64,000 nucleotides of DNA, from contig JANYLQ010000050.1 in assembly GCA_025363755.1 (NCBI GenBank), positions 1 through 64,000 of the forward strand, written 5' to 3'. This document shows, one piece after another, positions 3,820 to 34,320 of the stretch (the first letter of the stretch is position 1; each line of letters starts with the position of its first letter). Source of the DNA: Hyphomicrobiales bacterium. GTDB lineage: Bacteria > Pseudomonadota > Alphaproteobacteria > Rhizobiales > Aestuariivirgaceae. The notes below the pieces were generated by a model. The model did not search any database. It was not told the origin of the DNA and worked only from the letters and a program-made list of their open reading frames with translations. Both the position numbers and the translations under genes were made by a program.

Positions 3820-4214
3820 TGCACGGGCTTCTCAAACAAGCAGCAAAGTTTGCAACAATCGGAGCGGGAGCCACAGCGCTGCATGTTGTTTTCGCGCTGT
3901 TGTTCAATAGTTTTGCTGGTTTCACAGCGCTAGAGTCAAATTTCTTGGCTTTTCTAGTCGCGTCAGTTTTCACGTTTTGCGGAAATTATTTTTGGACATT
4001 TTCGAAAGCTGGAAAATTTGTTAACAGCATACCGCGCTTTGTTGCTTTGAGCAGCACCTGCTTTGCAGTGAATCAGACAATTGTATTTATCGTCACCCAT
4101 ATTTTTCACATGCCGCTCTGGATCGCTATGATACCTGTGGTTGCTTTCATTCCGCCGTTCAGTTTCTGGGTCAGCAAAACACGCGTATTTGTTACACATA
4201 CACCACCGGGTTGA
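3819..4214 (+). CDS. GtrA family membrane protein (polyprenyl-linked sugar flippase-like)
   Basis: 131 residues, with four hydrophobic segments at about 8-28, 33-53, 68-90 and 95-118, the size and layout of the GtrA family. These proteins are thought to flip polyprenyl-phosphate-linked sugars across the inner membrane. The pattern FATIGAGATALHVVFALL followed by a FxGNYFWTF-type second helix fits the family. ATG 3819 overlaps the preceding stop by one base and the gene ends 13 bases before the next start, so it sits in the middle of one operon. The GtrB-like enzyme made two genes upstream is the expected partner. Confidence 0.85.
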   Translation: MHGLLKQAAKFATIGAGATALHVVFALLFNSFAGFTALESNFLAFLVASVFTFCGNYFWTFSKAGKFVNSIPRFVALSSTCFAVNQTIVFIVTHIFHMPLWIAMIPVVAFIPPFSFWVSKTRVFVTHTPPG

Positions 4215-30707: not shown

Positions 30708-32129
30708 ATGACTTTGCGCCTTTACAACACGCTGACGAGAACGAAGGAGGAGTTTTCCCCCATCGATCCGAATAATGTGCGCATGTATGTCTGCGGCCCC
30801 ACGGTTTATGATTTTGCCCATATCGGCAACGCACGTCCGGTGATTGTGTTTGACGTGCTGTTCCGCCTGCTGCGCCATCTTTATGGCGCGGAACATGTTA
30901 CCTATGTTCGAAATATCACCGATGTTGATGACAAGATCAATGCAAGGGCTTTACGTGATTTTCCAAACTTGCCGCTGAATGAGGCGATCCGGGCGGTGAC
31001 TCAAAAAACGGCTGATCAGTTTCAGTCCGATGCCAAGGCACTTGGATGCTTGACACCAACTGAAGAACCGCGCGCCACAGATAACATTCAAGGCATGATT
31101 GATATTATCAGTACACTGATCAATAAGGGTCATGCCTATACGGCTGCTGGTGAGGTGCTGTTCAGCGTTTCGTCGATGGCTGATTATGGAAAACTCTCTG
31201 GCCGCAAACTGGAAGACCAGCAGGCGGGTGCCCGCGTTGCCGTGGAAGCCCACAAAAAAAATCCGGCAGACTTTGTGTTGTGGAAACTATCAAGCGCCGA
31301 CGAACCAGGCTGGGAGAGCCCATGGGGCAGGGGCAGGCCGGGATGGCACATCGAATGCAGTGCCATGAGCAAACGATATCTCGGTGAAATCTTCGACATC
31401 CACGGCGGCGGCCTAGATTTAATCTTCCCCCACCACGAAAACGAAATCGCCCAATCCAGATGCGCCCATGGTTCTAGCGTGATGGCCAATGTGTGGATGC
31501 ATAATGGGTTCTTGCAAGTTGAAGGGCAGAAGATGTCTAAGAGCTTGGGGAATTTTGTGACGATTGCGGATTTGTTGGAAACTGAGAAGTTTGGCGGGCA
31601 AAACTGGAATGGCGAAGTTCTCAGACTTGCAATGTTGATGACCCACTATCGTCAGCCAATAGATTGGACGAAGGACGCACTGCTAGCATCGCAAAAAACA
31701 TTGGTCGATTGGAACGGTGAACTATACAGCAGTCACTTGAAGTTTACCAAAGACAATCAAGAAACTTACAATTCGCTTACTGCGCATGAGGATTTTATTG
31801 ACGCGTTGTCCGATGATATCAATACTCACGCTGGATTTACAGTTCTTCATAAGCTTGCGAAGTCGCGACAAAAAATGGATATTGAATATCTTTTTGGTTC
31901 ATTAAATTTAATGGGTCTAATCGATTATCAATTTTTGTCAGCGAGACAGTTTCCATTGAAAACTAACATCAATCGGGAGTTGGTCGTTGATCTCATCAAC
32001 GACCGCCTCGCTGCTCGTCATACCAAAAACTGGAAAGAATCTGATCGTATTCGGGATGAGTTGGATGCGATGGGGGTTGCGATTAAAGATAACAAGGATG
32101 GGACGACGACGTGGGAAGTGAAGCGATGA
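30708..32129 (+). CDS. cysS: Cysteinyl-tRNA synthetase
   Basis: 473 residues. It charges tRNA(Cys). Zinc ligands start in [10 protein letters not shown] (near residue 27), followed by HIGNARP in place of HIGH (near residue 37). [12 protein letters not shown] near residue 210 and [19 protein letters not shown] near residue 230 complete the zinc site, and the KMSKS loop reads [10 protein letters not shown] near residue 268. The stop overlaps the ATG of the DUF559 ORF (ATGA). With cimA further downstream, cysS probably formed a direct pair with cimA before the DUF559 element arrived. Confidence 0.96.
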
Positions 32130-32749
32130 CGCGGCCCTCTCCTGCTTCGCAAGGGCGAAGCTGTCTCTCCCGCGAGGGGAGAGACTTGAGTAAGGAAGAG
32201 AAGGGCGAACCTGCAGGCCAAGTCTCTCCCCTTGCGGGAGAGACAGACTTGGGGCCCAGCCCCAAGTCAGGAGAGGGGTCGAAGCGGAGCTTCGCTAAAA
32301 AGCTTCGCTCCAATATGACCGATGTTGAAACCAAACTCTGGCAACAACTGCGCGCTAAGCGGTTTGAAGATTACAAGTTCCGCCGCCAAGTTCCAATCGG
32401 GCCATATATCGTTGATTTTATCTGCTTCGAAAAAAGACTGATCATCGAATTGGATGGATCGCAGCATGAAGGTTCGACTTATGATATGAAGCGTGACGCA
32501 TGGTTGAGGTCACAGGATTTTCACGTTTTAAGATTTTGGAATAATGATGTGAACGCGGCAATGGATGGAACGTTGTTGGCTATTCATGATGCGCTTGGAC
32601 TTCCCTCTCCTGCCTCGCAAGAGCGAGGCTGTCTCTCCCGCGAGGGGAGAGACTCAAGCAAGAAAAGGTCGTCTAACAGCCAAGTCTCTCCGCTAGCGGG
32701 AGAGACAGACTTGCGGCTGAGCCCCAAGTCAGGAGAGGGCAGAGCTTGA
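32126..32749 (+). CDS. DUF559 (Vsr/PD-(D/E)XK-like) endonuclease-domain protein between two repeats
   Basis: 207 residues from ATG 32126, which overlaps the cysS stop. The DUF559 core spans about residues 56-160: [16 protein letters not shown], then [15 protein letters not shown], then the catalytic-looking [11 protein letters not shown], then [11 protein letters not shown]. The D...ExD...H pattern fits very-short-patch-repair/PD-(D/E)XK nucleases. Residues before and after the core are translated repeat sequence: both ends contain [23 protein letters not shown] and SPKSGEG. The native start may lie nearer ATG 32315. The gene looks like cargo of the repeat, or its mobiliser. Neighbours cysS and cimA are intact. 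Confidence 0.8.
32135..32277. repeat. Structured palindromic repeat family B, copy 1
   Basis: A 143 bp element bounded by the perfect inverted ends CCCTCTCCTG (32135-32144) and CAGGAGAGGG (32268-32277). Inside are four hairpins: GCTTCGC/GCGAAGC (32144-32161), GTCTCTCCC/GGGAGAGAC (32163-32185), the same stem again (32222-32244) and GACTTGGGG/CCCCAAGTC (32246-32268). The whole could fold as a multi-branched, cloverleaf-like DNA or RNA. It is in direct orientation with copy 2 at 468 bases' spacing. Confidence 0.9.
32603..32739. repeat. Structured palindromic repeat family B, copy 2
   Basis: A 137 bp direct copy of the element at 32135-32277, with the same perfect terminal inverted ends. The first hairpin reads GCCTCGC/GCGAGGC (32612-32629) where copy 1 has GCTTCGC/GCGAAGC, a compensatory T:A to C:G change that keeps the stem. 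The second hairpin stem is identical and the third differs only around its loop. The fourth has mismatches in the upper stem. It is followed directly by the stop of the DUF559 ORF and by cimA. Confidence 0.9.
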
Positions 32750-32751
32750 TT

Positions 32752-34320
32752 ATGAAAACCCGCCTTTCCCTTTTCGACACCACACTCCGTGATGGGCAGC
32801 AAACGCCGGGCGTCACCTTCTCGCTCGACGATAAGCTCGTCATCATGGACATGCTCGATAAGCTAGGTGTCGATTATATTGAGGGTGGGTATCCCGGTGG
32901 GAACCCGACTGACAATCAACTGTTCTCTAAAGAGCGCAACACCAAAGCCACCTTCACGGCTTTCGGCATGACCAAGCGGGCAGGGCGGTCGGTTTCGAAT
33001 GATCCGGGGTTGCAGACTTTGTTGCAGGCCAAATCCAAGGCGATTTGCTTTGTGGCCAAGTCTTGGGATTATCATGTGCGGGTTGCTTTGGGCTGCACCA
33101 ATGAAGAAAACTTAGAAAGCATCGTTGACTCTGTTGCTGTTGCGAAAGCGGTAAACAAAGAGGTGCTTGTTGATTGCGAACATTTCTTCGATGGCTACAA
33201 AGCAAATCCTGAATATGCCACGGCTTGCGCAAAAGCTGCTTACGATTCTGGTGCGCGATGGGTGGTGCTGTGCGACACCAATGGGGGAACTCTGCCTTCT
33301 GAGGTGAGTGAAATCGTCCGTACAATGACGAAAGTCATTCCGGGCTCACATCTCGGAATTCACGCGCATAATGATACGGAGCAGGCGGTCGCTAATTCTC
33401 TGGCGGCGGTTGAAGCGGGTGCATGCCAAATTCAAGGAACGCTGAATGGCATAGGCGAACGTTGCGGCAACGCGAATCTCATTTCGATCATTGGCACGCT
33501 GGCGCTGAAACGTCAGTACACGGAGCGATTTGAGCTTGGTGTTGATGTCAAACAGCTCACATCAATCTCGCGTGGCTTTGATGAACTGCTGAACCGTGCC
33601 CCCAATGCGCAAGCGCCTTATGTTGGCAAAAGTGCATTTGCGACCAAGGCCGGCATACATGCTTCAGCTTTGGCGAAAGAGCCAGAAACTTATGAGCATG
33701 TTCCACCCTCAAGTGTAGGCAATAATCGGCGCATTCTGGTTTCTGATCAGGCGGGAAAATCGAATTTGCTGGCTGAACTCACGCGCATCAATCTTGATAT
33801 TGCGAAGGATGATCCGCGTTTGGATCATCTGTTGCGCGAAGTGAAAGAACGCGAGAACAACGGTTATTCTTATGATGGCGCTGACGCTTCGTTTGAATTG
33901 CTGGCAAGACGCACGCTTGGCAATGTGCCGCATTATTTTGATGTCGAAACGTTCCAGGTGAATGTGGGCCAACAGAATGGTCAGATGTATTCGCAGGCCG
34001 AAGTGAAAGTGAAGGTGGGCGATGAAATCCTCACCAGCACGGGCGAGGGCAATGGCCCTGTGAGCGCACTTGATGTCGCTTTGCGCAAAGACCTTGGACG
34101 TTATCAACGCTATATCGATGATATGGAATTGGTTGATTACAAAGTGCGTATCCTCAATGGTGGCACCAGTGCGACGACGCGGGTTTTGATCGAAAGCAAA
34201 GATGCGAAGGGTGAACGCTGGTTTACGGTTGGTGTTTCGCCAAATATCGTTGAAGCATCATTCCAAGCCTTGCTCGATGCAATCATCTTCAAGCTGTTGC
34301 GCGAAGGTGTGAGCGCATAA
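32752..34320 (+). CDS. cimA: Citramalate synthase
   Basis: 522 residues. It condenses pyruvate and acetyl-CoA to (R)-citramalate, giving 2-oxobutyrate for isoleucine. LFDTTLRDGQQTPG at residues 6-19 is the catalytic and metal-binding opening of the DRE-TIM family; LGIHAHNDTEQAVANS near residue 204 and NGIGERCGNANLI near residue 235 follow, and a LeuA-type C-terminal domain starts at about residue 395. The LEGGYPGGNPTD-like region and the length favour CimA over 2-isopropylmalate synthase. ATG 32752 is used; TTG 32746 overlaps the previous stop. Confidence 0.9.
   Translation: MKTRLSLFDTTLRDGQQTPGVTFSLDDKLVIMDMLDKLGVDYIEGGYPGGNPTDNQLFSKERNTKATFTAFGMTKRAGRSVSNDPGLQTLLQAKSKAICFVAKSWDYHVRVALGCTNEENLESIVDSVAVAKAVNKEVLVDCEHFFDGYKANPEYATACAKAAYDSGARWVVLCDTNGGTLPSEVSEIVRTMTKVIPGSHLGIHAHNDTEQAVANSLAAVEAGACQIQGTLNGIGERCGNANLISIIGTLALKRQYTERFELGVDVKQLTSISRGFDELLNRAPNAQAPYVGKSAFATKAGIHASALAKEPETYEHVPPSSVGNNRRILVSDQAGKSNLLAELTRINLDIAKDDPRLDHLLREVKERENNGYSYDGADASFELLARRTLGNVPHYFDVETFQVNVGQQNGQMYSQAEVKVKVGDEILTSTGEGNGPVSALDVALRKDLGRYQRYIDDMELVDYKVRILNGGTSATTRVLIESKDAKGERWFTVGVSPNIVEASFQALLDAIIFKLLREGVSA

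Follow-up and report, generated by a model that had tools for sequence, protein, structure and literature searches.

Among the repeat systems described in bacteria, the REPs and REPINs associated with RAYTs (Y1/HUH transposases) come closest to what we report here. REPs are defined as sequences of 20-40 nt that carry a GTAG or CGTC tag (PMC3733652). Other comparisons can be made with the Rickettsia palindromic elements (RPE), described as palindromes of ~150 bp lying in frame in coding genes (PMC10969869); possibly with the Rhizobium intergenic mosaic elements (RIME1 and RIME2); with MITEs; and with whalefall-1 (RF01762), published as a likely non-coding RNA occurring only in whale-fall sequences (PMC2864571). 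On the protein side the comparison is with DUF559 (PF04480), which Pfam still labels a protein of unknown function, and with the EDxHD homing endonucleases. A DUF559 gene of Thermosynechococcus has been assigned to EDxHD (PMC9403480), recombination hotspots of Legionella include three segments that contain both a transposase and DUF559 (PMC12308824), and Caulobacter VsrA (CCNA_02930) contains DUF559 and causes an SOS response in cells without the cytosine methyltransferase ScmA (PMC12907096), from which it follows that DUF559-type proteins can act in the cell. We found no paper that links DUF559 to repeats among the open-licence PMC papers, as far as their accessible text goes, and an earlier description elsewhere is possible.

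The locus described here lies in a 64,000-nucleotide stretch of DNA from a Hyphomicrobiales bacterium, which was analysed as a whole and which we call the window (Table 1). A preliminary description had reported a DUF559 nuclease gene between cysS and cimA, and the family match bears this out (PF04480, E 4e-40). The three genes run in the same direction, the ATG of the DUF559 frame overlapping the cysS stop (ATGA) and its own stop lying two bases ahead of the cimA ATG. The description had also stated that two structured repeats bracket the gene, which is correct in that E1 and E2 flank the core, but the repeats are not only beside the gene: the single open frame spans both, they are translated in the same reading frame as the core, and they therefore code for the N- and C-terminal tails of the protein. 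Translated repeats also form the tails of many other DUF559 frames. A search with PADLOC found no defence-system family at E values up to 1, and a defence-system reading was rejected on this basis.

Table 1. Features of the cysS-DUF559-cimA locus, with the loci that carry elements in pyruvate dehydrogenase (pdh) linkers
Feature	Position	Strand	Basis or remark
cysS, cysteinyl-tRNA synthetase	30708..32129	+	Pfam PF01406, E 4e-116; sequence
Left ATGA	32126..32129	+	With the ATGA at 32752-32755 bounds the 626-bp block missing from G003
Single open frame, 207 aa	32126..32749	+	Element-coded N tail, DUF559 core, element-coded C tail
E1, 143-nt palindromic element	32135..32277	+	Predicted outer stem and three hairpins; in frame
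DUF559 core	32282..32596	+	Predicted Vsr-like/EDxHD-like nuclease fold; PF04480, 138 bits, E 4e-40
E2, 137-nt second copy	32603..32739	+	In frame
cimA, citramalate synthase	32752..34320	+	PF00682 and PF08502; named from family and position
pdh-linker element loci			L022, L260, L263, L272, L276, L279, L281, L282, L291, L293

The analogy with RAYT/REPIN pairs that had been drawn for this locus fits in several respects: a nuclease gene is flanked by repeats that are also dispersed without a gene, the repeat families are genome-specific and the units have multiplied. It differs in the enzyme, which belongs to DUF559 (Vsr/EDxHD-like) and is not a Y1 HUH transposase, and in the elements, which measure ~100-170 nt and not the 20-40 nt of REPs. 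No GTAG or CGTC tag was seen at the element ends when 65 elements were read by eye; the elements begin CCCTC or similar.

E1 (143 nt) and E2 (137 nt) are direct copies of the ~140-bp element that had been reported, sharing 89% and 92% identity in two conserved blocks (63 and 61 nt), and the perfect 10-bp terminal inverted ends attributed to them are present in both (CCCTCTCCTG/CAGGAGAGGG, 10 nt complementary). Their predicted folds are far more stable than those of shuffled sequences, with z = -10.4 for E1 folded as DNA, z = -8.4 for E2 folded as RNA, and none of 200 shuffles as stable in either case. Each fold consists of an outer stem and three hairpins, that is, a four-way junction, and a count of four internal hairpins, as in the preliminary description, requires the long central hairpin to be divided into its two inner palindromes. 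The compensatory changes between the copies (GCTTCGC/GCGAAGC in one, GCCTCGC/GCGAGGC in the other) are real. When E1, E2 and the four other full copies in the window's genome are aligned (6 rows), two-sided changes affect 7 of 45 pairs, and the hairpin arms vary from copy to copy, yet pair in most. In an alignment of 112 rows, which is model-fitted and counts both strands of most elements, two-sided changes affect 38 of the 45 pairs, and 91.9% of the cells are paired, against 48-61% when the partner is slid. By comparison, the plan of the element is two inverted half-elements around a short loop (~30-60 nt by eye in gene-less copies), each half comprising an outer end, a variable-arm hairpin and an inner palindrome of the CTCCC..GGGAG type.

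This plan recalls whalefall-1, whose hairpin, variable hairpin and tail match each half-element. All four half-elements of the window (32134-32278 and 32598-32740) are matched by the whalefall-1 model, the best at 32.1 bits (E 2e-6), but this is below the gathering score of 37. At the lax threshold of E 10, the 12 matches listed in the window's genome are all at element sites, and matches also occur in 11 of 14 control genomes. A structured regulatory RNA was considered and rejected, all Rfam matches lying under their gathering scores.

At least four full copies accompany E1 and E2 in the window's genome. Those in contigs C45 and C57 are apparently intergenic, while the two in C29 (L022:2245-2375 and 4009-4133) lie in frame, in the linkers that follow lipoyl-type domains in apparent pyruvate dehydrogenase E1-beta (pdhB) and E2 (aceF) genes, which we named from their sequence only. 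Their reading frame is that of the copies in the DUF559 gene (...QPSPGAKAPVSP...GETQ...VSPLAGET...GEG). Contigs C49, C20 and C57 contain halves or variants of the element, and C4 a weaker model match. In-frame palindromes of several sequence families were seen in the apparent E1-beta/E2 lipoyl-domain linkers of eight genomes of the genus, and the presence of several families at these linkers suggests conversion in place or repeated insertion. Both pdh copies of the window's genome are common to its nearest relative, G003, so recent movement of this family is not demonstrated. The open frame extends 120 nt beyond both ends in 23 of 44 dispersed copies, a count for which the chance level was not computed. 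Palindromes that lie in frame, in the tails of DUF559 and in the pdhB and aceF linkers, resemble RPEs, as these have been described, in size and in being read in frame; the difference is that here a nuclease gene is linked.

The preliminary description had proposed that relatives be compared for an empty cysS-cimA site, and G003, the closest relative as judged by cimA (94% identical over 137 residues), has one: cysS and cimA are joined by ATGA, a clean absence of the 626-bp block. The only repeat at the borders of the block in the window is the 4-bp ATGA, which is also the stop/start overlap. DUF559 occupies cysS-cimA in six of the 21 genomes listed for the genus, the window's included, and is absent there from the other 15; G026, G034 and G036 also have DUF559 at the cysS place. 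Other genomes carry a single full copy at cysS-cimA, placed upstream and in some cases accompanied by a half copy downstream, and the two direct full copies first described are not the general layout. Different palindromes, of the CCCGGCGAAAGCCGGG type or similar, lie between cysS and cimA at L233, L238, L240, L243 and L247, which marks the gap as a recurrent repeat site, and at L234 (G002) half-elements stand on both sides of a small cysS-cimA ORF without DUF559. DUF559 with repeats recurs beside aminoacyl-tRNA synthetase genes, at L019 (pheS, named from its sequence) and at the cysS loci, in several parts of the tree; the tree of 90 cores, which has few columns and many weak forks, calls for four changes at cysS and for three at pheS.

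How closely are the elements tied to DUF559 beyond this locus? We built a covariance model, R1, from E1, E2 and the four other full copies in the window's genome, two of its six source sequences being those on either side of the window's DUF559. It matched 83 places in 35 of 100 related genomes, and 20 of these places, in 17 genomes, were less than 200 bp from a DUF559 core, compared with ~0.07 expected (18 of 76 when the window's genome is left out). The cores were taken from 137 of the 150 DUF559 places listed in the 100 genomes, 13 weak or partial rows having been dropped. With 150 PIN-domain places as a control, none of the 83 was within 400 bp, the closest being 77 kb away. These counts speak against an element unrelated to DUF559, the possibility by which the preliminary description had left its proposal open to challenge. 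The check that it had suggested at the level of whole genomes came out in the expected direction, with DUF559 in 33 of 35 element-bearing genomes versus 30 of 65 others, but PIN genes follow the same trend (31 of 35 versus 37 of 65); because PIN genes co-occur too, we dropped genome-level co-occurrence as proof. A pattern for a second family, CACCTTCTCCC-NNN-AGGGGAGAAGG, was found in 22 of the 100 genomes and its reversed control in none, and DUF559 is present in 21 of these 22 and in 42 of the 78 others. The exception, G064 (L286), is 99% complete and has 3 R1 places (5 matches) and 11 pattern matches, with no DUF559 among the matches listed; we regard it as holding an orphan repeat population.

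The repeats beside DUF559 are also related to the dispersed repeats of the same genome. Using 65 of the 83 R1 places, with elements of 98-174 nt, we made 10 comparisons in seven genomes, and in all 10 the DUF559-adjacent elements were closer to dispersed copies of their own genome than to copies from elsewhere (p = 0.002), a result to be read with the points that comparisons within a genome are not independent, that the one for G021 is close and that the baseline does not take in similarity among the dispersed copies themselves.

The link does not depend on the R1 model. We read 90 of the 137 loci in 120-nt windows, correcting the folding energy for G+C and taking z below -3 as extreme. Of the 90 DUF559 loci, 61 had an extreme fold within ~330 bp of the core; bands farther out gave 1-5 of 90, and the PIN loci one of 30. 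Twenty of the 90 had been picked by hand, five of them already known to lie beside an R1 element; without these 20, the count is 46 of 70 loci taken in E-value order, and the 70 represent 44 independent locations, 30 of which have a structured flank. A phylum sample of 29 new loci, which are those returned and not all places listed, and which includes the window's own order, gave 20 of 29 (farther bands 3, 4, 1 and 0), and a mixed-phyla set, in which L027 is the same place as L099, gave five of 13 (farther bands 1 each). The flank of E. coli YcjD was borderline (z -3.2). Conversely, 29 of the 90 loci, nine of the 29 and eight of the 13 have no extreme flanking fold.

Inverted repeats face each other across the gene at 65 of 89 DUF559 loci (48 of 69 without those picked by hand), compared with 0 of 75 when the flanks are taken 500 bp farther out, eight of 89 in swapped pairs and 0 of 30 PIN loci. 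In many loci, then, the DUF559 gene sits in the loop of a large palindrome. The signal is weaker in the phylum sample (13 of 29, against four in swapped pairs), and among the mixed-phyla loci it is three of 10, against one swapped; one of the 90 DUF559 loci and three of the 13 mixed-phyla loci, with flanks of fewer than 60 bases, are omitted from this test. The PIN-gene, far-band and swapped-pair controls led us to reject chance, or a general abundance of intergenic hairpins, as an explanation, and the 44 locations, 30 with a structured flank, led us to reject a single inherited insertion as the full explanation.

Whole units have multiplied in the genomes of two other species. G042 has a 592-bp repeat-DUF559-repeat unit at unrelated places, 93% identical, with a third copy at 92%, and G055 has a 641-bp unit, also at unrelated places, at 97.5% identity; the matching stretch is in each case the gene with its inverted structured ends. 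Queried with these units, G042 gave 95 matches and G055 145, strands being counted apart and sites overlapping, and most among the matches listed are ends without the gene; 20 of the G042 places of unit ends were fetched and read. Three units of 633-683 bp (L336, L341 and L308; two from G055 and one from G059) have 17-bp inverted ends, CAGGACTGTCCGGGGAA (CAGGACTGTCC), with one mismatch in the ends of one unit, and exact target duplications of 10, 10 and 9 bp. The 17-bp ends are not part of the shared halves, and of the loci fetched only those of G055 and G059 showed them; read by eye, two of the three units are nested in the loop of a further repeat palindrome. The ends are missing from five other units, of G055 and G042, and for this reason the three may have been moved by another, trans-acting transposase. 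Complementary ends, short gene-less copies and full-length units with a gene between inverted ends are features shared with MITEs. The units of 592-683 bp are too small for a DDE transposase, and terminal inverted repeats with target duplication were found only for the three units, all of one genus.

The enzyme itself appears intact. E16, D45, E56, D58 and H62, which we take to be catalytic-type residues of the Vsr-like/EDxHD motif, together with R35, Q36 and R71, are 98-100% conserved in 132 cores (of 133, one being too short), and all are present in the window, so that a core lacking conserved catalytic residues, the other outcome that had been named as counting against the proposal, was not found. 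The predicted model of the core (mean pLDDT 89.9) points to a Vsr-like catalytic fold with its acidic and histidine residues in place. Its nearest solved fold is 3hrl, a DUF559 protein of Neisseria gonorrhoeae, followed by I-Bth0305I (TM 0.70), and Vsr ranks seventh (E 0.004), behind two mitochondrial ribosome chains and the restriction enzyme PvuRTs1I. The predicted fold is a point of likeness to the EDxHD homing endonucleases, the difference being that structured repeats, and no intron or intein, surround the window's gene. The clean absence in G003 would be compatible with an enzyme that cuts a cognate target and so has its own gene copied there. DUF559 occurs in at least 80 of 299 genomes drawn from the phylum.

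Taken together, these observations suggest that enzyme and repeats form one mobile or self-copying unit, and we hold with moderate confidence that the DUF559 gene and the palindromic element are a single selfish repeat system. The best reading, by analogy, is that DUF559 would be the selfish, homing-endonuclease-like nuclease of a palindromic repeat family, a RAYT/REPIN-like arrangement with an unrelated enzyme. On the mechanism we would propose, DUF559 would recognise the element, as a duplex palindrome or as an extruded four-way junction, and would nick or cut it, after which repair or recombination may copy the element or convert sites to the cognate family. Copies without a gene would stand to the unit as REPINs stand to RAYT, in the role of the non-autonomous form. 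In the window the unit lies in the cysS-cimA gene row, and its repeats have become the coding tails of the nuclease. The case is one of comparison between sequences: physical linkage, structure under covariation, cognate families, multiplied units and conserved nuclease residues. The earlier proposal of nuclease and element as a mobile system is upheld in part, in its positional link and in its analogy; genome-level co-occurrence proved not to be specific, and the two-copy layout is not general.

The main rival, which we consider unlikely, is that DUF559 is cargo and the repeats are non-autonomous, moved in trans by an ordinary transposase. Three units, with their 17-bp inverted ends and their exact duplications of 9-10 bp at the target, look as transposition would leave them, the five other units of G055 and G042 without these ends can be counted on the same side, and G064 has elements with no DUF559. 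Cargo would, however, have had to be DUF559 again and again, the link being present at 30 of 44 independent locations, with several repeat families in the selection of flanks compared, whereas for PIN, likewise a small accessory nuclease family, one of 30 loci has such a flank. Could DUF559 instead be a free-standing homing-type nuclease that lands in abundant palindromic repeats and does not spread them? The fold like that of I-Bth0305I would suit such an enzyme, as would the position of two inverted-end units, which by eye occupy the loop of a palindrome that was there before them, and the variety of the DUF559s at the cysS place, which come from four parts of a tree with weak resolution. 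The multiplied units include the flanking halves themselves, however, and the adjacent repeats match the family of the same genome, and we judge this explanation to be quite unlikely.

It is very improbable, in our view, that DUF559 acts alone in repair, as a Vsr-type endonuclease whose work has nothing to do with the repeats around it; the Caulobacter VsrA response without ScmA (PMC12907096) would agree with a role in repair, which some members may have, but the strength and specificity of the positional link speak against an absence of any link. That a RAYT moves the repeats and DUF559 is incidental we find scarcely credible: there is one Y1_Tnp match in the window's genome, but Y1_Tnp is no commoner in element-bearing genomes (five of 35) than in others (nine of 65), and this want of association led us to reject RAYT as the mobiliser.

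We return to the selfish repeat system as our preferred reading. Its wider form, which we offer tentatively although we see it as a serious possibility, is that a large class of bacterial palindromic repeats, so far unrecognised, has DUF559 proteins as its dedicated mobility enzymes. A gene between inverted half-elements would be the autonomous form and gene-less palindromes its derivatives, and the Vsr/EDxHD-type nuclease, by cutting the structured element, would spread and homogenise the repeats. If true, a REPIN-like system would exist whose enzyme has no relation to the Y1 transposases associated with REPs, and the Rfam family whalefall-1 may correspond to one half of a DNA repeat. Should the link be functional, an enzyme with a core of ~105 residues would have been named for one group of such repeats, the DUF559 tails that are translated repeats would be explained, and the spread of REP-like DNA would become directly testable.
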